Positions 1,696 through 47,533 of a stretch of DNA of 64,000 nt are shown here, in pieces. A program made the translations under genes and the position numbers. The notes under the pieces were generated by a model. The model searched no databases, had not been told where the DNA came from, and saw only the letters and a list, made by a program, of their open reading frames with translations. The stretch comes from an uncultured Clostridia bacterium (GTDB lineage: Bacteria > Bacillota > Clostridia > Christensenellales > Borkfalkiaceae), in NCBI GenBank assembly GCA_947627065.1, contig CANQUN010000002.1, positions 1-64,000 on the forward strand, written 5' to 3'. Position 1 is the first letter of the stretch. Each line of letters opens with the position of its first letter.

Positions 1696-4600
1696 ATGAA
1701 ACGCATAGCGAGAATCTTGTGTATTCTGTGCGTGATTGCGGCGGTCGCGTTCTCCGCGTTCGCCTGCGGCGGCCCCGGTAACAACAGCGGCAACAGCGGC
1801 AATTCGTCCGCAGGGGAGACGGTCGTCGTCTCCGCCTCGGGCGGGACCGTTACCGTAAAGGACAGAGAAATCGGCACCTACGATTACACAACACTCTTTA
1901 CCATAACCGAAAACGGCAGCCCCGTTGCGGTAAAGGCGGAATACGTGGACGCTTCCAAGGTGGTTGCCATCCCCGGTATTTACGTCGTAACCTGCACCTA
2001 CAAGGGCAAGTCGGCGGACGCCGCGGTTAAGGTAGAAGCCACGGACTATTCGCTCGACCTTGCGGTCGAACAAGTCTCCGTAAAACTCTCCGAGGTTGCG
2101 GGTTACGACTTCAAGGCGCTCTTTTCGGCAACGCTCGACGGTGAGCCCGCCGAAATAACCGACGACATGGTCGTTTCCACCGTCAAAAACGAGGTGGGCG
2201 ACTATACCTACACAGTCAACTTTTACGGCCTTAGCAAAACGCTCACCGTGCACGTCGTACCCAACAGGTCGGTGGAAATCGTCCTTTCCTACACCGTGTA
2301 CGAACTGCCCGTTTCCGAAATAGACGGCTTTGACGCAAAGACGCTGTTCTCCCTTTACATCGACGGGCAGGCCGCTAAAATAGACGACTCCATGATAGAC
2401 TCGTCCGCCCTTGCCGCCGCCACCGTCGGCGACACGGTGGAGGTTACCCTCAATTATTCGGACGGAGAGGTTACGGCCGTAAAATCGGCTTCCGTAACCG
2501 TTGTTGCCGAGATAGAGGTGGTAATCACCGCCCGCAACGTGGTAACCTACCCCAACGGGGACGTCATCGACCTCACGTCGCTCTTTACCATAAAGAGGGG
2601 AGAGGAGGACATTCCCGTAACCATCGACATGATAGAGGGCAGCATCGACTACTCGTCGGAAGGCGAAAACCGCATAACCCTCACTTACGGCGGCAAGACC
2701 GCCACCGCGGTGGTAGAAGTCAAGCGCGGCGTCATCATCGGTTACGCCAAGGGCGACACCGTTACCGTGAGAAAGGGTGCGGACAAATCGGTCTACCCGT
2801 TTGCGGACGACTTTGTCATAATAATCAACGGCACACGTTTCCGCAGGATTCCGGACAGTTGCTTTGACCTCTCGGCCGTCAATTTCGATGAGGCGGGCAC
2901 CTTTACGGTAACCCTCACCATCAAGTACAACGACCAGGGCCTCGGCCTTTCGGGCGCGAAGTTTGAAGAAGTTTCCGAAACCATAACCTACGTCGTTACC
3001 GAAACGACGTATTCGGTAAACGTTATCAACCCGCTGGTAATCCTCCCCGCAGGCACTTCTTCTTACAACCCGCTCGGCAACCTGTCCGTCGTCATAAACG
3101 GCTACACGCAGACGCTGACCACCAACCCCGCCCACGTGGACACCATAACCTGCTACGCGCAGGTACAGGGCAGCATCGACTTTTCGGTGAGCGAAGTTCA
3201 GCAAATCTCCGTCGCCGTTTACGTAAACGGCCCCGAGGCCGAACCCGTTACCGTTTCCTTTGAAGTGGCTGTTGACAGCGCGATTACCGTCTCCGCGCAC
3301 GACGCGGCCGTCTTTGCGGGAGACACCGTTTACGCACGCAACCTGTTCACGATAACCGCGGGCAGCCGCGAGGTGCAGGTTACCGACGAAATGGTCAGCG
3401 GCAAGGTGGACACCTTCACCCCGGGCGTTTACAGAATAACCGCCGATTACATGGGATACAAGGCGGTTGCCACCGTCATAGTCTATCCCGCCGAGATGAA
3501 GGGCACTTACAAGACGGGGCTTACCACCATACCTACCTACACTTCGGACGACGACGATGACGAAAGCGGCTGGTATACCGAAGGGGGAGACGACTATTAC
3601 GACGACTCCTACGGGGCAGACCTTCCCGCAACCATTGCGGAAACCATGGACCCCGTATCGCCCCTCGGCGACCTCGTGATAGAAGAAGGCTCCATCACCT
3701 TCAACGACAATACCGCGACCGAAGCAATCGGCATCGACGAAAACAGCATGCTGCTCCGCACGGGGGTGTCGGGCAGGGAATACACCCTGACTTACGACAA
3801 CGGCGTCGTCGTTCTCGTACCCGACAACGGCATAAAACTCTCCTTCAGCGATTACGCCCGTCCGCTCATCTACTTCAAGAGCGACATGTGGACGATAGAG
3901 CAGCACTTTACGGTCAACTATTCCGACCACTACGTCCTCTCGGACGCTTTAGTCGGATATTCCATGGACAACTTCCTCATCCGTTCCTCTACGGGCGAGC
4001 GCAAGTGGTACACGCTGTACGTGCGTCTTGCCACCAAAACCTCGGCGGACACCGTTTACAACGTGAGGTGGGGAGAATCCACCATGGACAACTTCAACCC
4101 CGCCGTCGGCTCCGTCTGCACCCTCAATTTTGAAGATACGGCTTACGAATTTACGGTAACCGCCACGGGTGTAGGCAAGGTCAACCGCTACGAGAATCAC
4201 GAATACGCAAACATGGAATTTTCGGGCACGGTTGACGGAAAGGAGGCCAAACTCGTCGTCAATTCCTCCGAGTGGTTCCAGCTCTACATCGAAAACAAAC
4301 TTGTGCTGCAACTCACGGGCAACGACGTTTCGCAACTTAAAAACGGCGGCAAACTGTCGGGCAACAGGGTGTTCCTGTACGCCCACGAGACAGACTCCGA
4401 TTACGGCGAATACTCCTACATGTTCGACCTTGACGTAGAGGGCAAAACCTTCACGCTCGAACAGCGCGACCCCTATTACGGCAGGTACATGAGGGACAAC
4501 ACCTACATCTTCCTCGACGGTTACGGCACGGGCCACTTCAACACCAACATCGGCTCGCACGTTACCACTTGCTTCCGTTACACGGCCGTGAACGGCGAAC

Positions 4601-5518: not shown

Positions 5519-8500
5519 ATGAAAAAAGGCAGATTGTTGACCTTTTTGGCGCTCGCACTGTGTGCGGCCGTGTCTCTGTTCCTCTACGGATGCGGAGACA
5601 TTCTCACCGAACACGTGCATGAGTACACCGAGTGGGTCATAACAACCACCCCCACCCAGGAAACGGGCGGCGAAGCCACGCACAAATGCCCGGCTTGCCT
5701 CAACGAGGAAACGGTGGAAATACCCGCCCTGTCGGATTCGGACGTCTGGTCCGTCAAGTCCGAACAGCCGGCCACTCACGATGCCGACGGCACGAGAGTA
5801 TACACTTCCGAATACGGCGATGTAGAAATCGTTCTGCCCCTCGTACCCGACCACGTTTACGGCGAATGGACGATAACCGACGAGCCTACCGAAGACGCAA
5901 GCGGCTCCGCCGAGCGTGAATGCTCCGTCTGCGGCGACGTGGAAACGGCAACCGTTCCCACCCTGTCCGACGGTTCGGTCTGGACCGTGGAAGAAGTTCC
6001 CGCCGACCACCACAACGCAGGCAGCAAGACCTACACTTCCGAATACGGCCAAGTTGTAGTAGAACTGCCCGTCGTTCCCCACAGTTACGGCGCGTGGACT
6101 ATAACCGACGAGCCTACCGAGGACGAAACGGGCACCGCTTACCGCGAATGCGAATGCGGCGACAGAGAGGATGCGGAAGTTCCCGCCCTGTCCGACGCCG
6201 ACACGTGGACTATGGAAGAAGTTCCCGCCGACCATCACAATACAGGCAGCAGGACTTACACTTCCGAATACGGCGAGGTTGTAGTAGAACTGCCCGTCGT
6301 TCCCCACAACTACGGCGCGTGGGTCATGACCGACGAGCCTACCGAGGACGAAACGGGCGCCGCTTACCGTGAATGCGAATGCGGCGACAGAGAGGATGCG
6401 GAAGTTCCCGCCCTGTCCGACGCCGAAACGTGGACTGTGGACGAAGTTCCCGCCGACTACAACACCGCAGGCCACAAGACCTACACTTCCGAATACGGCG
6501 AGATTACCACCGCCACCCCCAAACTCGTTGCGCCTTACGACAACAAGACTTATTACAGTTTTGCCGTTCAGGCCAACGATTCCGGATACAGAAACAGGTC
6601 GCTCCGCATCGGCGACTCGTGGACGGGCCAGTTCATCGTCCTCGATGAAAACGGCGTGGGTATCGGCTACGGCATGCCCTTCAACAACAAGGACAAACAC
6701 ACTTTTGCCATAATCGACCCCGCCACGGGCGAAGCGCAGCTCACCACCATTGACCTCGCGGGCGACCAACTCAAAGACGAGGACGGCACCCCGCTGGTAG
6801 ACGCTTTTGACAGGCCGCTGTACGACCTCAACAACACCAGCGGTTCGCCCACCGTGCGCCGCGTTTACGTTGACTTTGAAACGGGCTTTATGGTTCTTGC
6901 CAACAACGGCAACGACCTCAGTTACGTTCACGTTCTCACGCCTTACGGCAAGTACGACAGAGAAAGTCCCGCACTCGCTTCGGCTTGGGGTAACGACCTC
7001 GAATACGCCATTGCCATAACCTACCCCTACGGCGACGGCCTGACCGAAAGCATATTCATCACCGACGGCAGGGCTTACTTCGGCGTAACCTTCGAGGATA
7101 TCGACGGACAGCCCGTAGCGGCCGACAAATGCTACAACAACTCTTACGTTTACGTCAAGAAGAACGGCGTAACCCTGTTCGCTTACGGCTACGGCGAAGG
7201 AGCCATGCATAAGTTGGACGGCAACGAGGGCACCTACACTCTCGGAGAGGACACCCTCACCGTTTCGGGTTACGGCACTCTCGAATACAAGGGCAACTCC
7301 GGTACTTACACGGTAGAGGGCGACATAATTGCCGCCACCGTTACCGAGGACGGCAAGGAAGTTTATTACGAATTCACCCTTGAAGGCGACACCTACACCG
7401 TTGACAAACCCATGGTGGAAATCACCTTCAACCTCGGCGGCCACGGCGCGCTTGCCGACGACGTGGTTACCGTAAACAAAAACGCCGCTTACGACCTGCC
7501 CGTGCCCGACGAAGACCCCGCTTTCATCTTCCGCGGCTGGTTCCTTGACGAGTCGTTCGACACGCCTGTGGACGAAGTGTTCCGCCCGTCGGGCAGCGTT
7601 ACGCTCTACGCCAAATGGCTGGCCAAGGTAACCATAATCGTACACGTTGCCGAAGGCGACACGCGCACCCTCTACCTTGCCGACGGCGAAATGCTCTCCG
7701 TCGTGCTCGAAGGCCTCATCGAAAAGGCCGTAGACGAGGACAAGGGCGTTTACTTCGTCGGTTGGTATTCCGACGAGGGCTACGAAACCGAAGTTCCCGA
7801 CAACGCGCAGGTTTCCACCGAGGACGACGGCTTTGAAATTTACGCCAAGTGGGAGGCTCTGCCCGACTATTACGGCGATTACGTCGGTTGGAATTTGGAC
7901 GGCGCAAGTAATACGAGTAGTTCGAAGTACACAGCGTCCATAGACATTTACGGCAACATAACTTCCGGCAGGTACAACATTGACGGAGCCAAAGTCAGCC
8001 ACTACGACCCCGCTACGGGAATCATAACCGCTAACAAAGGTAGCTCTCAGCCGTATCTTTACCTTGACCCCGAATACGACATTATGGCAACCGCTTATAA
8101 CACCAACAGATATCTCGGCAGCGACATAATATTCATGGCCAAATACGAGATGGATCCTGTTAAGAATATCGGCATAAGGGTAGCCAGCAAGAACCCGAGC
8201 AGTGGTACTTCTCAGGGCTATTACGTAAGAATCGTCCTCGCCAAGGATAAGGAGGGCAACGACCTTCTCGTGTTCATCTACGACGATGAGATTCACGGCG
8301 GCGTTACCATTCAAGACGCCCTTGGCAAAACCCTTGAGTTCGATGCCATCCAGAACTCCAAGACCCTCATCGTAAAACTCGGAGACAAGATTCTGTTCTC
8401 CGTCAGCGCGGTTGACGCCACCCTTAAGGGCAGCGACACCGTTCCGCTTGACAGTTGGTACGGCACCTACACGGGCGAAGGCGGCAACGCCGTTGTCGAC

Positions 8501-10993
8501 GGTGCGGGTTCCATCAAATTCTACTTTGAAGGCGCCGAGGTAGACGGCACTTACACCGTTGCCGAGGACGCGGGGTACACCTTTGACGTTTACAGCGACG
8601 ACGGTTATTATGAAGTAACCCTCGACAAGGACGGCATGACCTACACCGTCAACAAACCCATGGTTGAAATTTCCTTCAACCTCGGCGGCGTTGATGTCGA
8701 ATACCCGTCGTCCACAACCGTAAACAAGAACGTTGAGATCACCGTTGCCGCTCCCGAAGAGGCGGGCCACGTGTTCCGCGGCTGGTTCACCGATCCCGAA
8801 TTTGCCGAGAACTCCGCCCTTGCCACCGATGAGGAAGGCAACTACCTGTTCACCCCCACGGAAACCGCCACTCTCTACGCCAAATGGCTGGTAAAGGTTA
8901 CCATAACCTTCACTATGAACGACGGAACGGACAACGCCGAAACCCTCGTCTACGGCGAAGGCGAAACGGCGACCTTCGACGACCCGAGATACAAGGGCTT
9001 TGAGTTCAAGGGCTGGTTTACCGACAAGGACGTCTGGGCAGAAGAATGGGGCACTCACGACGGAGAAACCCGTTCCACCTCGGGCGTGCTTAACGAAAGC
9101 GTAACCGTTTACGCCAAGTGGGTAGAAGCGCCCGTTTACGCCAACCTCTACCACGGCGCTATCATAAGCGGCGACGAGGATAGGACGGACGGTAAAACGT
9201 CTGTTGACGTGAGAGAGTTCGTGGTAGACATCGCCGCCGACGGCGCGGCTTATTCCGTATATTCCATTTCCCCGTTCAGGGGCGAATTCAGGATTGAAGG
9301 GTATGACGAAGCCACCGGCAAGATGAACATGATATTCACTTACAACAATAGTGATTCCGAATACATTGCCGTTATCGACAAAGTAACGGGTATCATCGTC
9401 ATGAACGGCTTCAGCAAGACCAATTTGTCCGGCAACGACGGCTATAACTTCACTTACAGTTACTACCTGCTCTCGCCATTCGGCGACGAAATAAAGAGCA
9501 GTGAGATAGCCTCCACCTATTGGAACAACGGCACCACCGTCGTCCTGACCTACACGCCCGCCGTTGGCGGTTCCTACAACATACTCCTCCACAAGGGAGA
9601 AGTTTATTTCGGCGTAACCTTCAAGGATGGCCTCACCGACGATGCGGGCGACGTTCCCGCGGAAAGCGCGAACAGGGCCGAACGTATCTACGTCTTTGAC
9701 AGAGAGGGCAACGAAATATTCCGCAGCGGCTTTGACAGCGACAGCAACACCATGGTTGACCTCGACGGTTACGAAGGTTCTTACACCTTCGCCTCGGGCA
9801 GCAAGGACTTCGGCGAGATAGAACTCAACGGCGTCAGCACCTTGACCGTCAAGGCCCAAGAGGGTACGAGCGGCGTATATGCGCCCGTCAAGGGTAAAGA
9901 GTGGTCCATCGACGTTTACATCGAAGGCGATTATTACCGCTTTACTCTCGACACCGAGGCCCGCACCTACACCAACGTCAAGCCGATGGTAGACATAACC
10001 TTCTCCAGCGAGGTTACCGCCGTTGACTCCGCAAACGTCAACGTCAACATTCCTTACGAACTGCCCGCGCCCGACGACACCGAAACCAAGGTGTTCCGCG
10101 GCTGGTACACCGACCCCGACTGCCAGACCGCCGTTACCCTCGATGAGGACGGACTCTACGTCCCGACCGAAGACGTTACTCTGTACGCCAAGTGGCTCGA
10201 CAAGGTAACCGTAACCGTGGTTTACGGCAACACCCTGCCCGATGGAAAGATCGAACTCGGCAAGGGAGAGGCGGCCCACCCGGAAAAACCCGTTTATACC
10301 GAAGGTAAGATTTTCGAGGCGTGGTACACCACGTCCGACTATCAGGCGGGCACCGAATGGACCGACGGCACCGCTGTCGAAAGCGACATAACCATCTACT
10401 GCAAGTGGCAGGAGGCCGCTCCCGTTTACGGAGAATGGGTAGGCGCAAACTATTACGGTACAGGTAACAGCAATTGCTCGATTCTCTCCAGAGAAAGCAC
10501 GCTGACGTTTGACGCGCAGGGCAACTGCAGCGGCAAAAAGACAGGAGTGTTCACCGATTATGACCCCGAAACGGGTAAATTCAAGGTTGGCAGCACCGCC
10601 GGGGCATTGGATGCAAAGAACGGAGTACTGTATGTAAACTACGATTCGGTTGGCGAACCTGACGACGACATCTACATTTTCGTCAAAAAGACCATGATTT
10701 CCTCGTTCAACGCGATGGAGACATCGTCTGCTTCCAACCTACTTGGCGGTTTGACTAAACTTGCCGACATAACCCTCGACGACGGTTCTTCCTTCAAGGT
10801 GCTCTACCACGACGGCAGAATTTACGGCAACGTGTCCATCGAAGGCACCAACGTTGAAGGCAGGACCGAAGCGATCACCTGCGGCAACGTTCACTCCGTA
10901 GCCCAGACGCTCACCGTCAAGGACAGCGACGGCAACGTAATTGTTGAGTTTGAACGTGTAAGCGGCACCCTCGCCGTCAAAACGTCCGACTGA
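5519..10993 (+). CDS. Giant InlB-repeat surface lipoprotein
   Basis: This 1824-residue protein has a strong ribosome site (AAGGAG, 8 nt from ATG) and a lipoprotein signal ending in FLYGC (Cys25). Residues about 37-335 consist of four near-identical units of 75-76 residues containing ITDEPTED, CxCGDxED and TYTSEYGE motifs. From about residue 640 onward at least six InlB B-type (Listeria-Bacteroides, 'Flg_new') modules can be seen, each with F(R/K)GW(F/Y) followed by (L/I/V)YAKW, separated by unrelated beta-rich regions with GTYT motifs. This architecture is typical of clostridial surface adhesins. There is no LPxTG or S-layer domain, so lipid anchoring is the likely attachment. It lies 22 bp downstream of the Ig-like lipoprotein gene. 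Confidence 0.85.
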   Translation: MKKGRLLTFLALALCAAVSLFLYGCGDILTEHVHEYTEWVITTTPTQETGGEATHKCPACLNEETVEIPALSDSDVWSVKSEQPATHDADGTRVYTSEYGDVEIVLPLVPDHVYGEWTITDEPTEDASGSAERECSVCGDVETATVPTLSDGSVWTVEEVPADHHNAGSKTYTSEYGQVVVELPVVPHSYGAWTITDEPTEDETGTAYRECECGDREDAEVPALSDADTWTMEEVPADHHNTGSRTYTSEYGEVVVELPVVPHNYGAWVMTDEPTEDETGAAYRECECGDREDAEVPALSDAETWTVDEVPADYNTAGHKTYTSEYGEITTATPKLVAPYDNKTYYSFAVQANDSGYRNRSLRIGDSWTGQFIVLDENGVGIGYGMPFNNKDKHTFAIIDPATGEAQLTTIDLAGDQLKDEDGTPLVDAFDRPLYDLNNTSGSPTVRRVYVDFETGFMVLANNGNDLSYVHVLTPYGKYDRESPALASAWGNDLEYAIAITYPYGDGLTESIFITDGRAYFGVTFEDIDGQPVAADKCYNNSYVYVKKNGVTLFAYGYGEGAMHKLDGNEGTYTLGEDTLTVSGYGTLEYKGNSGTYTVEGDIIAATVTEDGKEVYYEFTLEGDTYTVDKPMVEITFNLGGHGALADDVVTVNKNAAYDLPVPDEDPAFIFRGWFLDESFDTPVDEVFRPSGSVTLYAKWLAKVTIIVHVAEGDTRTLYLADGEMLSVVLEGLIEKAVDEDKGVYFVGWYSDEGYETEVPDNAQVSTEDDGFEIYAKWEALPDYYGDYVGWNLDGASNTSSSKYTASIDIYGNITSGRYNIDGAKVSHYDPATGIITANKGSSQPYLYLDPEYDIMATAYNTNRYLGSDIIFMAKYEMDPVKNIGIRVASKNPSSGTSQGYYVRIVLAKDKEGNDLLVFIYDDEIHGGVTIQDALGKTLEFDAIQNSKTLIVKLGDKILFSVSAVDATLKGSDTVPLDSWYGTYTGEGGNAVVDGAGSIKFYFEGAEVDGTYTVAEDAGYTFDVYSDDGYYEVTLDKDGMTYTVNKPMVEISFNLGGVDVEYPSSTTVNKNVEITVAAPEEAGHVFRGWFTDPEFAENSALATDEEGNYLFTPTETATLYAKWLVKVTITFTMNDGTDNAETLVYGEGETATFDDPRYKGFEFKGWFTDKDVWAEEWGTHDGETRSTSGVLNESVTVYAKWVEAPVYANLYHGAIISGDEDRTDGKTSVDVREFVVDIAADGAAYSVYSISPFRGEFRIEGYDEATGKMNMIFTYNNSDSEYIAVIDKVTGIIVMNGFSKTNLSGNDGYNFTYSYYLLSPFGDEIKSSEIASTYWNNGTTVVLTYTPAVGGSYNILLHKGEVYFGVTFKDGLTDDAGDVPAESANRAERIYVFDREGNEIFRSGFDSDSNTMVDLDGYEGSYTFASGSKDFGEIELNGVSTLTVKAQEGTSGVYAPVKGKEWSIDVYIEGDYYRFTLDTEARTYTNVKPMVDITFSSEVTAVDSANVNVNIPYELPAPDDTETKVFRGWYTDPDCQTAVTLDEDGLYVPTEDVTLYAKWLDKVTVTVVYGNTLPDGKIELGKGEAAHPEKPVYTEGKIFEAWYTTSDYQAGTEWTDGTAVESDITIYCKWQEAAPVYGEWVGANYYGTGNSNCSILSRESTLTFDAQGNCSGKKTGVFTDYDPETGKFKVGSTAGALDAKNGVLYVNYDSVGEPDDDIYIFVKKTMISSFNAMETSSASNLLGGLTKLADITLDDGSSFKVLYHDGRIYGNVSIEGTNVEGRTEAITCGNVHSVAQTLTVKDSDGNVIVEFERVSGTLAVKTSD
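5629..6520 (+). repeat. Tandem in-frame 225-228 bp coding repeats
   Basis: Four direct repeats encode the N-terminal 75-76 residue modules of the InlB-type lipoprotein. Landmarks such as the codons for ITDEPTED recur near 5873, 6101 and 6326. The last two units are almost identical at DNA level, which suggests recent duplication and possible copy-number variation. Confidence 0.85.
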
Positions 10994-11006: not shown

Positions 11007-11081
11007 GACATCGGTACTTGAATCGGTAAGGCTAACTGACATCGGTACCTGACATCGGTTCGTCTGTTTGACATCGGTACG
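11007..11081. repeat. Clustered GACATCGGT repeats downstream of the lipoprotein gene
   Basis: GACATCGGT (mostly followed by AC) occurs at about 11007, 11038, 11051 and 11070, with degenerate copies (AATCGGTA at 11021, GACATCTCGG at 11096), all within 100 bp of the upstream stop codon. There is no open reading frame and no clear terminator in this stretch. Function unknown. Confidence 0.7.
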
Positions 11082-11170
11082 ACTGTATGTCCAACTGACA
11101 TCTCGGGCAGGCGGCGGCCGCAACGTCGGCCCCGCCTCGCCTGACGAATATGCCATAACGGCAGTCTCAT

Positions 11171-11271
11171 GTTGCTTGGCGCTTCGCGCCGCAACAACTG
11201 TTGCCTCATGTCGCTTGGTGCCTTGCACCGCAACAACGGCAGTCCATGTTGCTTGCGCCTCGCGCCGCAAC
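11171..11271. repeat. Three tandem 38-39 bp hairpin repeats
   Basis: Hairpins at 11171-11195, 11210-11234 and 11248-11271 share the plan GTTGC-TT-GGCGC, a 3-nt loop, then GCGCC-GCAAC. In the second copy the inner stem is GGTGC/GCACC, a compensatory change that keeps the pairing. One outer pair in copy 2 is lost and copy 3 has a bulge. The units are joined by a CAACAAC(T/G)G linker. Covariation suggests selection on structure in RNA or single-stranded DNA. They sit between the lipoprotein gene and its terminator. Confidence 0.65.
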
Positions 11272-11298
11272 GTCGGCACCGCCTGACGACATCACACA

Positions 11299-11332
11299 AA
11301 AAGCCCGTTTTTCTCACGAAAAACGGGCTTTT
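11299..11332. terminator. Perfect 14-bp bidirectional terminator with TCAC loop
   Basis: A-rich sequence, AAAGCCC, GTTTTTC, loop TCAC, GAAAAAC, GGGCTTT form an uninterrupted stem flanked by A and T runs. It would end the surface-lipoprotein transcript. The inner arms plus loop (TTTTTC-TCAC-GAAAAA) match the core of the motif dispersed across the window. Confidence 0.85.
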
Positions 11333-11985
11333 CACATATCTTCCCGCCGCAGGCCTTACCTCGCCCTAAACGGTCTTTTCACATCTTCTCGCCGCAGGTT
11401 TTACCTCGCCCTAAACGCTCTTTCCACCTTGCCGCCAAACAGGTTTTTATATTTCTTTTTCCACATCGTTGCATGCGGGTTTTCAGTTTTTCACTTCGCT
11501 GTAAAAGGCCGTATACACGTCCTCTTGATGGTTTTACTCGTTTCTCCGTCCGCCTTGCGTCCCTGCACCGCAAAGGCGGTTTTACGCCTCAACCCTCAAA
11601 ACCCCCCTGAATCTCACAAAAACGAGGGTGTCCGACCCCAAAACGAACAACTCGACATAAAAAGAGGGGACTTGTCCATTTCGCAAACAAACAAAAAGGA
11701 AGAGGAAAATCACCTCAATCTTCAATCAACCCAAATAAAAAAAGGGGCGGCATGTAACCAACCCCAATAAAAAATGGCGACGCGCAATCACCCCAAACAA
11801 ACAACGGGAAGGGAATCACCCCAATCCGCAAACGCCCTCAACACACAACAAACCCCCTAAAACACACAAAAACGAGGGGATTACGATACACAATCAACCC
11901 AAAAAACGAGGGGATAACGATATACAACCAATCCAAATATAAAACGTGGAATTACGATACAATCAACCCCAACAAATAAAAAAGA
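11333..11985. other. Repeat-rich non-coding stretch
   Basis: No credible gene. It begins with degenerate copies of 'TTTTCACATCTTC(T/C)CGCCGCAGG.(C/T)TTACC' near 11334 and 11376, followed by two copies of the dispersed CTCACAAAAA-type motif (11603-11624 and 11853-11874). A run of short direct repeats follows (AACGAGGGGAT(T/A)ACGATA at about 11873 and 11907, AATCAACCC between). It looks like decayed repeat DNA between convergent transcription units. Confidence 0.6.
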
Positions 11986-12007
11986 GGGGAACGGAAATCC
12001 GTTCCCC
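11986..12007 (-). terminator. Terminator of the TSCPD-DUF4364-HPr operon
   Basis: GGGGAACGGA and TCCGTTCCCC form a perfect 10-bp stem with an AA loop. On the minus strand it is followed by CTCTTTTTTATTTG, a good intrinsic terminator 14 bp after the stop of the minus-strand gene. Confidence 0.9.
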
Positions 12008-12021
12008 GAACATCGCTCGGC

Positions 12022-12741
12022 TTATTTTGCCGCCTTGGCCGTCTTGGTCTCCTTGGCGGGTTTGGTCTCCTTTGCAGGCTTGGTTTCGGCCGTCTTGGTC
12101 TCCTTAACCTCTTTGGCTTCTTTTGGCTCCTTTGCCGTTTTAGCCTTAGTCTCCTTGGGCTTGGCCTCTTGCGCCTCAGGCTTATCCGCAACGGGCGCGG
12201 CCTCGGCCGTCTTTGTCGTCTTGGCGGCTTTTACCGTCTTGGCGGGTTTGGCTTCCTCGGCGGGCTTGGCCTCTTGCGCCTCAGGCTTATCCGCAACGGG
12301 CGCGGCTTCGGTTGTCTTTGTCGTCTTGGCGGCTTTTACCGTCTTGGCGGGTTTGACTTCCTCGGCGGGCTTGGCCTCTTCGGCCTTCACGGCCTCTTTA
12401 ACCTCGGCCTCCTTGGCCTGCTCGGCCTTTGGTTCCTTTGGCTCTCTGGAAGCCTTGGGCGGCTTGGCTTCCTTGGCCTCTTTGGCCTGCTTTTCTTTCT
12501 TTTCCTTGTAGTCGATGAGCGCGCGCGCCAGCTGGTCTCCGCACGAAGTGTCCGACTGGCACCTTATGCCCTTGAGCGTGGCGATGACCTCGTCTATGGG
12601 CTTGCCGTTGACGAGGCGGGAAATGGCCTGCAGGTTGCCGCTGCAGCCGCCAATGAATTTGACGTTAAGCAGTCTGTTATCTTCCGTCACGTCAAAGAGT
12701 ATCTGACGCGAACACGTTCCTTTAGTGATGTAGGTATTCAT
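12022..12741 (-). CDS. TSCPD-domain protein with a long Lys/Ala/Glu-rich tail
   Basis: Residues 1-80 match the stand-alone TSCPD family (TIGR03905 type), including GTCSRQI near the N-terminus, a GGCSGNLQA motif and CxxxxxSCGDQLA. TSCPD domains are small Cys-containing folds also found at the end of B12-dependent ribonucleotide reductases; the stand-alone proteins are usually about 80-85 residues and uncharacterised. Here some 155 more residues follow, made almost only of Lys, Ala, Glu, Pro and Thr in repeated AKPAKTVKAAKTT and PVADKPEAQEAKP blocks, like histone H1 or AlgP-type tails. The tail is probably disordered and may bind nucleic acid; that is inference. The gene starts 3 bp after the DUF4364 stop, in a three-gene operon. 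Confidence 0.85.
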   Translation of the reverse strand: MNTYITKGTCSRQILFDVTEDNRLLNVKFIGGCSGNLQAISRLVNGKPIDEVIATLKGIRCQSDTSCGDQLARALIDYKEKKEKQAKEAKEAKPPKASREPKEPKAEQAKEAEVKEAVKAEEAKPAEEVKPAKTVKAAKTTKTTEAAPVADKPEAQEAKPAEEAKPAKTVKAAKTTKTAEAAPVADKPEAQEAKPKETKAKTAKEPKEAKEVKETKTAETKPAKETKPAKETKTAKAAK

Positions 12742-12744
12742 TTT

Positions 12745-13278
12745 TTACTCCTGTTCAACCAGATTTTCGTAGATGAGCGCGTAGAAATCCGCGGCCTTGT
12801 TTTCCCAGCTGCGGTAAATCTCCTTGGCGATGTTTCTGCCGGGAACGACGAGCTTCATTTCCAAAAGCGGCTGGGCCGGTTCTATTATCTTGAGGTGAAC
12901 GGTAAACGTCCCGTCCTTATTCATGAAATAATCGGCAAAGCACTCCTGCCGCTTGCGGAACAACTTGCGGTTGTTTTTGACAAACAGCGCAATTTCTTCT
13001 CTCGTGCTGGTTGGAATCTTGACAAAATAGTTTGCAAGGCACATCCGTCCTTCCGTGGTTATGTTGTAAAGAACTTCACCCGTGTTGTTGATTGTGTAAA
13101 TCAGGCCTCTGTCGTTCAGGCTGGCAATTATCCCCTTGAGGTCCATATAATTTATCCAGCTGTTTGCCGACGTGCACATATCGAAGAGAGTCTCTTCAGA
13201 CATCGCCATTTCCATTTTGTCAAAGACGAAAAGAAGTATTAACTTGTTGACTTCCGCATCGCCCTTGACTTGCTGCAT
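12745..13278 (-). CDS. DUF4364 family protein
   Basis: The 177-residue product has the DUF4364 layout: an N-terminal winged-helix-like segment (NKLILLFVFDKMEMAMSEE through LNDRGLIYTI), a linker, and a C-terminal beta-rich part. This Firmicute family is thought to be a DNA-binding regulator but has no established role. The start is supported by GAGGAG close to the ATG on the minus strand. It lies 19 bp downstream of the HPr-like gene and 3 bp upstream of the TSCPD gene, so the three are likely cotranscribed. Confidence 0.85.
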   Translation of the reverse strand: MQQVKGDAEVNKLILLFVFDKMEMAMSEETLFDMCTSANSWINYMDLKGIIASLNDRGLIYTINNTGEVLYNITTEGRMCLANYFVKIPTSTREEIALFVKNNRKLFRKRQECFADYFMNKDGTFTVHLKIIEPAQPLLEMKLVVPGRNIAKEIYRSWENKAADFYALIYENLVEQE

Positions 13279-31328: not shown

Positions 31329-32117
31329 TTAAGCGATCTTGATTATATTCATCAGTGTGTCGTTGTAGGTGGGGCCTTCGCCGAGCGTGAGTTGCAGCGT
31401 AATGCCGCCCGTGCTTTGGACGACGGCGGTTTTGGACATAGAGTACGTTGCCGCCGTCTCGCCAGTCTGTCCCTGCGCGAGCGTCCCTTCCTGAGCGGTT
31501 CCGCCCACGGTAAGTTGCATGCTGGGCACGGCCGTGCCGTCCGAAACGTAGTTTGTCCCGTAGGTTACAAGGTAAGTCCCCGTGCCGAGCGTTACGGTGC
31601 CCGTGGTTTGGTCGTAAGTTATCTCCGTTTCACCGGTCGGCAGGGGAGTGTATTCGGTGAATATCGCCGTGGGGCCTGTCAGACCCGTTCCCTGCAGGGT
31701 GGCCGCGCTCAGTTGCGCCGTCCCCGCCGGGCCTTGCGGACCTGCCGGACCTTGAGGACCTTGCGGACCCGTTGCACCCGTTAAACCAACCGGTCCCTGA
31801 GGACCTGCGGGACCTTGGGGACCTTGCGGTCCTGTTGCACCCGTCAAACCAACCGGACCTTGCGGACCTGCGGGACCCTGAGGGCCTTGCGGACCCGTTG
31901 CGCCCGTCAAACCAATAGGCCCTTGCGGACCTGCGGGACCCATCGGACCCGTCGCACCTGTAAGACCCGTAGGTCCCTGCGGACCCTGCGGGCCTGTGGG
32001 ACCCTGAAGCCCCATGGGGCCTTGCGGGCCTCTCGGGCCTGTTCCGCCGGTAACGGAAACGGTTATTTCCTCTCCGCACCTGCGGCAATTTTCGAAAAAG
32101 CTGTTATTACAAGCCAT
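31329..32117 (-). CDS. Collagen-like (Gly-X-Y) protein, exosporium BclA-like
   Basis: The 262-residue product has a short Cys-containing head (NCRRCGEE), about 36 Gly-X-Y triplets (residues about 26-133, mostly [13 protein letters not shown]) and a globular beta-rich C-terminus ([12 protein letters not shown]...). This plan matches BclA-type filament proteins of spore surfaces, where the C-terminal domain trimerises. No signal peptide is seen, which suits a mother-cell-made spore coat or exosporium protein. The collagen part is encoded by near-identical 54-bp DNA repeats, prone to length change. The minus-strand ribosome site GGAGGTTAAA is good. Location on spores is inference, supported by nearby spmAB. 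Confidence 0.85.
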
Positions 32118-44585: not shown

Positions 44586-45039
44586 GTTCCGCCGCATATA
44601 TGCTACGCAATACGGTGTCAAACTTCGCTTGCCTCGGGTCATTTACGCAAAGTAAACTCCCCGTCGGCAACGCTCGCTTTCCTTGTCTTGCTTGCGTCTC
44701 TGCACCGGAAAGCGGGCACGGAAAAGTTCCGCCGCATATCCGCCGCGCAATACGGTGCCATCGCTTGCCTCGGGTCATTTACGCCGAGTAAACTCTCCGT
44801 CGGCAACGCTCGCTTTCCTTGTCTTGCTTGCATCTCTGCACCGGAAAACGGGCACGGAAAAGTTCCGCCGCATATATGCATCGCAATACGGTGTCAAACA
44901 TCGCTTGCCTCGGGTCATTTACGCCAAGTAAACTCCCCGTCGGCAACGTTCGTTTTCCTTGTCTTGCTTGCGTCTCTGCACCGGAAAGCGGGCACGGAAA
45001 AGTTCCGCCGCACATCTGCTACGCAATACGGTGCAAAAC
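44586..45039. repeat. Tandem 136-140 bp repeats inside the ribU leader
   Basis: Three full units begin with GTTCCGCCGCA at 44586, 44726 and 44862 (lengths 140, 136, 140), and a partial fourth runs 45002-45039. Each holds G(C/T)TCG(C/T)TTTCC, a ~24-nt loop, then GGAAA(G/A)CGGGC; the stem is kept in units 1 and 3 through G-U exchanges, with one mismatch in unit 2. Lengths are not multiples of three and frames shift, so the repeats are not coding despite open frames. The array ends in a dispersed-motif copy (45039-45060). Confidence 0.9.
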
Positions 45040-45949: not shown

Positions 45950-47533
45950 ATGGCAAACATCTTTGATTATATAATCTGGAGGGGAGACCTTCCGTTCGCT
46001 TCCGCGCCCGTGTGCAACGCCGATTACGTCGCCCTGTCGCAGATTGCGCTGCTCGATCTGTCGGGCGTCATTCCCAAACGCGGCAGCGTAACGCTGGGCG
46101 ACGCTTACGCCCGTTTCCTTTCCAAAAAGAGCGGAAAGATAGGTTATATAATCCCCGAGGACATCAAGGCGCTTTTTGAAAAAATGGCCGATTCTTCGCG
46201 ATTCAGGCCACTTTTGCTCCACCATTACGTCGATGAAGTGGACATTGAAACGGACACGCAGTTTTCGGCTCTCACCCTCGACGACCCAAAGTCGCGCACG
46301 CGGTTTGTCGTGTTCAGCGGCACGGACGACACCTTGGCCGGCTGGAAGGAAAACTTCAACCTGCTCTACCGCACGCCCACCGTCGCGCAGATAAGGTCGG
46401 TGCGATATCTCGATTCTCAGGCCGAAGATTTCGACGGGGACATCTACGTCCTCGGCCACAGCAAGGGCGGGCATCTGGCCATGTATTCGTCGCTCGGGTG
46501 CAAAAAACCCAATGCCGACAAGATAAAAAAGATAATCAACCTCGACGGCCCGGGTATGCCCGACGGCTTAAAGCGCAAGAAACTAAACGCCGACATCTAC
46601 TCCAAAACCGAGGCCTTCCTCCCGCAATCGTCCATAATCGGCAGGCTGTTTGAACACGGCGAAACCTTCCACATAGTCCACAGCAACGCCAAGGGGCTGT
46701 TCCAGCACGACTGTTTTTCCTGGGAGATTCTCGGTCCCGACATCGTGCGCGAACCGAGTTTTGACGAGGACGGCGAAGGGGTGGACGCGTGCTTCCGCAC
46801 AGTCATCGCCGAACTTACGGCAGATGAAAAGGAGTTTTTTGTGGAAAGCCTGTTCGGGTTGATGTACTCGACGGGGGCGACCACGCTCACCGAACTTGTG
46901 GCCAACACACGCGAGTTCGTCAGGCTGTGGCTGCGCGCCGACGGCGAGACCAAAAAGTCCCTGAATCGCGTGTTATTGCTGTTTTTGAAGGACAAATATT
47001 TCAGGAAATGTATCTTTGAAACCTTCAAGGAAATGCGCAAGAACACCCGTTCGGGTGAAGCCGCCCGTCTGGAAGAAGAGGCCGCCGCTCTCGTCTCCGC
47101 CGCCGAACGGGAGGACGCCGTTCAGCCCGTTTCCGCTCCCGCAGAGTCTGAAAAGAAAGCCAAGCCCGCCCGCAAGAAGGCCGAAAAGAAGGCCAAGCCG
47201 AGCGCGGATACGGCAGCCAAAGAGGCCGAACCGAAGCCCGTGGAAGAAGGGGAAAAGGCCGATTCCTTTGCGAAAAAGGCGGCTAATCGCAAAAAGTCCG
47301 CCTCTCATGCGGCAGAATCTCCCGCGGCCGAACCCGCCGCAAAGCCCGCTGCAAAACCCGCACCCGCCGAGCAAAAGGCGGCCGCAGCACCCAAAACCAA
47401 AAAATCCGACGCAAAGAACCCTGTGGCCGCCAAAAAATCCGCCGTCAACGCTCCCGCAAGCACTGCAAAACAACCCGCGACAGGCAAAAAAACGCCCGCG
47501 GCAAAGAACGCCGCGGGACGCAAGAAAAAATAA
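45950..47533 (+). CDS. DUF2974 alpha/beta-hydrolase-like protein with a histone-H1-like tail
   Basis: The 527-residue product starts with the Mbeg1-like DUF2974 domain (about 1-330), which has a lipase-type fold: GTDDTLAGWKEN (about 124-135, oxyanion region) and the nucleophile elbow GHSKGG (169-174, Ser171). A plausible His is in FHIVHS or LFQHD. From about residue 385 the sequence becomes Lys/Ala/Pro/Glu-rich (KKAEKKAKPSADTAAKEAE and similar to the end), resembling the tail of the TSCPD protein at 12022. The tail is probably disordered and strongly basic. No signal peptide. Ribosome site AAGGAGAA. Its lipase activity is not established for the family. Confidence 0.85.
   Translation: MANIFDYIIWRGDLPFASAPVCNADYVALSQIALLDLSGVIPKRGSVTLGDAYARFLSKKSGKIGYIIPEDIKALFEKMADSSRFRPLLLHHYVDEVDIETDTQFSALTLDDPKSRTRFVVFSGTDDTLAGWKENFNLLYRTPTVAQIRSVRYLDSQAEDFDGDIYVLGHSKGGHLAMYSSLGCKKPNADKIKKIINLDGPGMPDGLKRKKLNADIYSKTEAFLPQSSIIGRLFEHGETFHIVHSNAKGLFQHDCFSWEILGPDIVREPSFDEDGEGVDACFRTVIAELTADEKEFFVESLFGLMYSTGATTLTELVANTREFVRLWLRADGETKKSLNRVLLLFLKDKYFRKCIFETFKEMRKNTRSGEAARLEEEAAALVSAAEREDAVQPVSAPAESEKKAKPARKKAEKKAKPSADTAAKEAEPKPVEEGEKADSFAKKAANRKKSASHAAESPAAEPAAKPAAKPAPAEQKAAAAPKTKKSDAKNPVAAKKSAVNAPASTAKQPATGKKTPAAKNAAGRKKK

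Follow-up and report, generated by a model that had tools for sequence, protein, structure and literature searches.

A TSCPD protein with an IscU-like predicted fold and a long polyampholyte tail in an uncultured Borkfalkiaceae bacterium

The gene studied here joins a small TSCPD domain, which looks IscU-like and carries four conserved cysteines, to a long C-terminal tail that is a near-balanced, well-mixed polyampholyte and not a histone-H1-like polycation. The reading favoured for the whole protein, with a probability of roughly 0.55, is that of a small metal- or Fe-S-handling protein bearing a lineage-specific disordered spacer tail.

Genomic source and gene layout

The window, that is the whole stretch of DNA analysed, covers positions 1-64,000 of contig CANQUN010000002.1 from the uncultured Clostridia bacterium (Borkfalkiaceae) GCA_947627065.1. 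The features of the locus are collected in Table 1. The stop codon of the DUF4364 gene is separated by 3 nt from the TSCPD start codon, and the motif AGGAG stands just upstream of that start. Eight terminator-like sites were counted in the 2.5-kb region against 4.4 expected from shuffles, the hairpin of Table 1 being the one with the most pairs.

Table 1. Features of the TSCPD locus, in window coordinates
Feature	Position	Strand	Description	Basis
Whole TSCPD-plus-tail gene	12022..12741	-	239 aa, ATG start	ORF, domain HMMs
TSCPD/TIGR03905 domain	12502..12741	-	Residues 1-80; Cys10, Cys33, Cys61, Cys67; IscU-like predicted fold	
Disordered polyampholyte tail	12025..12501	-	Residues 81-239; 42 K, 29 E, 39 A, 17 T, 16 P	
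In-frame tandem duplication	12157..12380	-	105-bp unit, 2.1 copies, 96% match	
Tandem repeat at C-terminal end of tail	12033..12105	-	18-bp unit, 4.2 copies	
Intrinsic-terminator-like hairpin	11986..12007	-	9 pairs, loop of 4, T run; 14 nt past TSCPD stop codon	
DUF4364 gene	12745..13278	-	177 aa, weak winged-helix similarity	

As the source genome is a draft of 104 contigs, with a completeness of 90.8% and a contamination of 4.0%, and the tail is known from this one genome, an error of assembly or binning was considered as the origin of the tail. This origin appears very improbable in view of four observations. The gene order upstream of the TSCPD gene (DUF4364, then a divergent gene, the likeness being judged by eye) is the same in two loci of the same genus, the GC content at codon positions 1/2/3 is similar in tail (0.62/0.47/0.70) and domain (0.50/0.40/0.75), the stop codon of the tail stands directly before the terminator-like hairpin, and no second copy of the tail was found in the genome by protein search at E values up to 10.

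The TSCPD domain and its IscU-like fold

Residues 4-78 match the Pfam TSCPD model (PF12637) with 87.3 bits against a cut-off of 22.8, and residues 3-77 match TIGR03905 with 95.6 bits against a cut-off of 67.7, which confirms, far above both thresholds, the TSCPD domain that had been proposed for this frame. The protein thus shares with the small proteins of TIGR03905/PF12637 the full domain match and the four cysteines, while its 239 residues compare with a size of about 80-100 aa that is typical of, although not defining for, TSCPD proteins. Cys10, Cys33, Cys61 and Cys67 are invariant across 45 aligned TSCPD sequences; a more distant relative within the order (G205, locus L063) lacks Cys10. 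A literature search found nothing for TIGR03905 or for DUF4364, nor any description of a tailed TSCPD protein.

The AlphaFold model of the domain, built with 45 sequences, has a pLDDT of 94.3 and consists of three strands and three helices. When this model was compared with the PDB by Foldseek, the best six matches were all IscU/ISCU, with probabilities of 0.87-0.96 at E values of 0.11-0.19, and no match other than IscU reached a probability of at least 0.1 among the 50 matches listed. In VIA-align, the Z score of IscU structures reached 7.2 at most, which is a tie with domains of dihydrolipoamide dehydrogenase, one chain of which ranks first with 7.4. Profile comparison by hhalign was made with 21 of 25 IscU/NifU_N loci from the same bacterial family, four being left out by a motif filter, and gave a colinear alignment of 83 columns over query residues 1-85 (score 35.3, E 1.3e-6, probability 82), while the best of 30 column-shuffled decoys scored 17.0; both profiles are shallow, with an Neff of about 2.1 each. 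In this alignment Cys10, Cys33 and Cys67 fall on three cysteines of the IscU profile, which we take to be its metal-site residues.

Other features set the protein apart from the IscU/NifU_N/SufU scaffolds. It is shorter, Cys61 is extra relative to IscU, the Asp of the IscU C-G-D motif is aligned with a gap and Ser66 stands opposite the His of the H-C motif, so that neither is kept, and Pfam NifU_N gives no match to the protein at E values up to 1. Because of this missing match and the loss of Asp and His, the domain is named IscU-like and not a NifU_N member. A sequence search of solved structures with the single protein returned none at E values up to 1; five profile matches to solved structures, with E values of 0.37-1.5, were taken as chance. 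The likeness to the scaffolds consists of the predicted fold, with the six top Foldseek matches, the colinear profile alignment and the three of four cysteines that coincide, and on these grounds the domain looks IscU-like. We infer that the cysteine cluster most likely holds zinc or an Fe-S/sulfur species. As to NifU_N itself, matches above the cut-off are present in 27 of 41 sampled genomes of the bacterial family, and the genome under study, a draft about 91% complete, has only a weak one (E 3.2e-4, contig C8:29268-29438).

IscU-like domains are also carried by the C-terminal tails of class II ribonucleotide reductases, according to PMC9669993. Weak TIGR03905 matches below the cut-off, mostly covering model positions 24-77, are found mostly in frames of at least 734 aa, which we take to be putative reductases, a view that fits the domains described in that source. 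The present protein would share the IscU-like fold with those domains (PMC9669993) and differs in being encoded by a stand-alone gene with no reductase. We infer a link between the TSCPD name and the IscU-like domains of reductases; a literature search under TSCPD found no paper on these enzymes.

Composition, charge and disorder of the tail

Besides the five residue types counted in Table 1, the tail contains only V 8, Q 4, D 2, S 1 and R 1. The fraction of K+A+E+P+T is 0.899; over 2000 dinucleotide-preserving shuffles it averages 0.513 and never exceeds 0.654. The initial annotation had reported about 155 extra residues of Lys/Ala/Glu/Pro repeats, and this description holds, the tail measuring 159 residues of which 90% are K, A, E, P or T, beyond anything seen in the shuffles. 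An open frame by itself is weak evidence, since the frame of the tail stayed open in 73 of these shuffles and the opposite strand, too, has one frame without a stop codon along the tail. The disorder that had been assumed is borne out as a prediction: in the full-length AlphaFold model the last helix extends to residue 91 with nothing predicted beyond, and block-mean pLDDT values are 43-61 from residue 101.

The same annotation had likened the tail to a basic, histone-H1-like one, and this label is not sustained. In the tail, 43 basic residues are offset by 31 acidic ones, for a net charge of +12 over 159 residues (+0.075 per residue), the net charge per 20 residues varies between -3 and +4, and the charges are mixed better than in 99.8% of 2000 shuffles. 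The tail is therefore a near-balanced, well-mixed polyampholyte. Since its net charge is still +12, it may make weak contact with nucleic acids or ribosomes.

This charge pattern bears on the idea of a tether, in which Lys-rich segments of the tail would bind DNA, RNA or polyphosphate and so hold the TSCPD domain there, by analogy with the role supposed for the KPAA tail of AlgP. Such a tether would be in keeping with the Lys (26%), Pro (10%) and Ala (25%) content, the positive net charge and the +4 of the first 20 tail residues. AlgP, described in PMC9239181 as H1-like with KPAA repeats, and PhaF, treated in the same source, resemble the present protein in their long Lys/Ala/Pro low-complexity C-terminal tails with internal repeats; however, they are strongly basic, with whole-protein net charges of +55 in 352 residues for AlgP and +35 for PhaF, whereas the TSCPD tail is near-balanced with 18% Glu. 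With 31 acidic residues, a 20-residue net charge that falls to -3 and charges that are mixed and not blocky, tethering of this kind seems unlikely. Another comparison is offered by bacterial ribosomal proteins with Ala/Glu/Lys low-complexity C-termini (PMC6821194), which are similar in that an Ala/Glu/Lys C-terminal region sits on a small conserved protein; here, that region is carried by an IscU-like protein with four cysteines.

Repeats, codon pattern and selection

A three-residue rhythm runs through the tail. Amino acids three positions apart are identical in 56 of 156 comparisons, a number reached in 0 of 2000 shuffled tails, whose mean is 28.6, while identical codons at this lag number 30, against 29.8 expected from random choice of synonyms. 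After removal of one 105-bp copy, the corresponding values are 44 of 121 against 22.5 for amino acids and 23 against 22.8 for codons. At a lag of 9 nt, the normalised base match at codon positions 1/2/3 is 0.19/0.41/0.07. A strong amino-acid rhythm together with randomised synonymous codons indicates that the rhythm is kept as protein and is not a residual DNA repeat, and thus suggests, at the level of the sequence pattern, protein-level selection on the three-residue rhythm of the tail. At a lag of 35 codons, by contrast, identical codons number 39 against 23.0 expected; this excess marks the 105-bp duplication as recent, newer than the three-residue rhythm. There was time for such randomisation: when the genome is compared with its four genus relatives, identity of synonymous codons exceeds the random level only slightly (in G004, for example, 92 of 198 are identical, against 76.7 expected).

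A tandem-repeat hot spot of 1.4 kb (11007-12384) holds 10 of the 20 repeat rows of the window, three of them in the tail and seven past the TSCPD gene.

It could accordingly be asked if the tail is a neutral product of slippage, in which a stop codon was lost beside a repeat-prone region, the repeats expanded and the resulting tail has no role. The clustering of half of the repeat rows, which points to a repeat-prone site and weighs against a strong claim of selection, the apparently recent 105-bp duplication and the absence of the tail from every relative read all speak for such an origin. Set against it are a pattern that is present in the amino acids while the choice of synonymous codons is randomised, and the 9-nt match that is far higher at position 2 than at position 3 (0.41 versus 0.07), which would be unexpected for a DNA repeat decaying neutrally, and a purely neutral tail is judged doubtful. 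The codon test also illustrates how one genome can suffice to separate a selected low-complexity tail from one produced by slippage alone.

Distribution of the domain and the tail among relatives

With E values up to 0.001, TIGR03905 was found in 6 of 6 genus, 140 of 151 family, 309 of 396 order and 89 of 398 phylum genomes, and above the family cut-off in 6, 140, 291 and 52 of them, respectively. A DUF4364-linked orthologue is present in four of the five other genus genomes; these orthologues are 81-91% identical to the domain (BLAST) and all stop at residue 85. For the fifth genome (G003), the locus fetched contains only a more distant kind of TSCPD protein. The whole 239-residue query has matches in 353 of 398 family genomes, and among the matches listed for these 398 genomes a tail match without stop codons occurs in the genome under study only; one further row (G1021) aligns up to tail residue 159 but crosses four stop codons.

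Forty-five loci chosen for long open frames were read, a set that does not include some listed frames of 120-130 codons (e.g. G060, G234, G734). In 43 of them the extra length lies upstream of the domain start. In the other two (G764 and G788) a further domain of about 214 residues comes after the TSCPD domain, and its similarity to calcineurin-like phosphoesterases is very weak (E 0.34). Both of these genes belong to another family of the phylum and lie on the + strand of loci L074 and L075, at about 1570-2454 and 1626-2510. The longest plain end among the loci read is that of G107, a protein of 101 aa whose last 21 residues are rich in Ala, Lys and Glu. The third cysteine and the stop codon are separated by at most 37 residues in 80 named relatives and 2 viral contigs, against 179 here. 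Candidatus Borkfalkia, Gallimonas and Scatosoma are among the named relatives, many of which come from animal gut or rumen samples. A TSCPD-type protein, 46% identical, is also encoded at 3001-3243 of a 139.5-kb contig listed as viral (L167, IMGVR_UViG_3300037249_001000).

Members of TIGR03905/PF12637 that were read thus end at most about 25 residues past the domain, the fusions in G764 and G788 excepted, whereas the present protein continues for 159. The search for long-tailed homologues called for by the initial annotation therefore ended with no relative read that has the tail. The architecture, which had been described there as unfamiliar, is real, in frame and absent from the relatives read, but the basic H1-like label attached to it did not stand. 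It had further been argued that close relatives without the tail, together with a frameshift, would explain the tail away: close relatives do lack it, but no frameshift is present. The tail shares the reading frame of the domain, has an amino-acid-level pattern with randomised codons and is followed by a terminator past its stop codon, and the frameshift origin was rejected, the protein search of the genome having returned no other tail match. A fusion with a neighbouring gene was likewise unsupported, since terminator-like or unrelated sequence follows the short gene in four loci of the same genus, as judged by eye. Since the relatives do without the tail, it is dispensable for the conserved function.

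Pairing with DUF4364

At 46 of the 54 distinct TSCPD places read in the bacterial family, the 2-3 kb locus also encodes a DUF4364 relative, and the remaining 8 have the second kind of TSCPD protein, the more distant one. In loci from beyond the family, BLAST with the DUF4364 protein of the window found a relative in 1 of 25 (L083), and the pairing is consequently a trait of the family and not a general one. The DUF4364 protein is possibly a winged-helix regulator linked to the TSCPD protein.

Other low-complexity sequences

A second tail is found in the Mbeg1-like protein encoded at 45950-47533 (+), which has 156 C-terminal residues rich in A/K/E/P with a net charge of +16. Its frame has 530 codons, against 377-423 in five genus orthologues, four of which have plain short ends while that of G004 is short and Lys/Ala/Ser-rich. 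Identical amino acids at lag 3 number 18 of 153, against 24.6 in shuffled tails, and identical codons at this lag 12, against 6.4 in synonym shuffles. With no three-residue rhythm, the Mbeg1-like tail is not the same kind of sequence as the TSCPD tail.

Genome-wide, a degenerate Lys-Pro-Ala pattern was not enriched, with 41 sites against 67 for the reversed control. The surroundings of 40 of the 41 sites were scanned, a site on contig 93 being left out; six belong to the TSCPD tail, and other long K/A/E/P stretches were found in two genes, a DUF2188 protein in which a K/A/P stretch precedes the DUF2188 domain and a protein presumed, by recognition of its sequence, to be IF-2. The lack of enrichment thus leaves two clear tail cases, TSCPD and Mbeg1-like, and no genome-wide habit.

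The window contains further repetitive sequences. A 262-aa protein at 31329-32117 (-) consists of collagen-like Gly-Pro-Gln/Gly-Pro-x repeats and a non-repeat C-terminal part; a 140-bp tandem repeat (44586-45037, 3.3 copies, 89% match) lies upstream of a membrane-spanning-looking frame; and a putative surface protein of 1824 aa at 5519-10993 (+) carries a tandem repeat of 225 bp close to its start, and the strand opposite this gene is likewise open, over 1591 codons.

Discussion

In the favoured reading of a small metal- or Fe-S-handling protein with a spacer tail, the conserved part would be a TIGR03905/TSCPD protein that stands alone and folds like IscU, whose four conserved cysteines would bind zinc or an Fe-S/sulfur species, and which in this bacterial family would be made together with the DUF4364 protein, a putative regulator. 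In this lineage the usual stop codon was probably lost, as the relatives suggest, and a near-neutral K/E/A/P/T tail with a three-residue rhythm, apparently kept by protein-level selection, would have been lengthened by the later 105-bp duplication. The most likely role of the tail would then be that of a soluble spacer, or bristle, which may keep the small domain apart from, or loosely near, charged molecules and would touch polyanions weakly and non-specifically at most. Several points weigh against this reading, namely the missing NifU_N match, the loss of Asp and His, the VIA-align tie, the shallow profiles, the absence of Cys10 in L063, a DUF4364 pairing that is not general, the remaining net charge of +12, an Mbeg1-like tail without the three-residue rhythm and a tail seen in a single draft genome.

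A bolder version, for which the odds are low, would see in the protein a minimal stand-alone IscU-like scaffold that forms a unit with DUF4364 in this bacterial family and, in this lineage, is held near a partner or polyanion by a selected, three-residue-periodic tail. If true, it would be a tethered Fe-S or metal scaffold of a sort not described in the literature found.

The tail itself, ordinary in kind, is a lineage-level elaboration of a known small protein, and it looks selected. More useful is the link of the uncharacterised TIGR03905/TSCPD family, present in 140 of 151 sampled genomes of the bacterial family, to an IscU fold with matching cysteines, as this link would make a test of metal or Fe-S binding by a widespread unknown protein simple to design.
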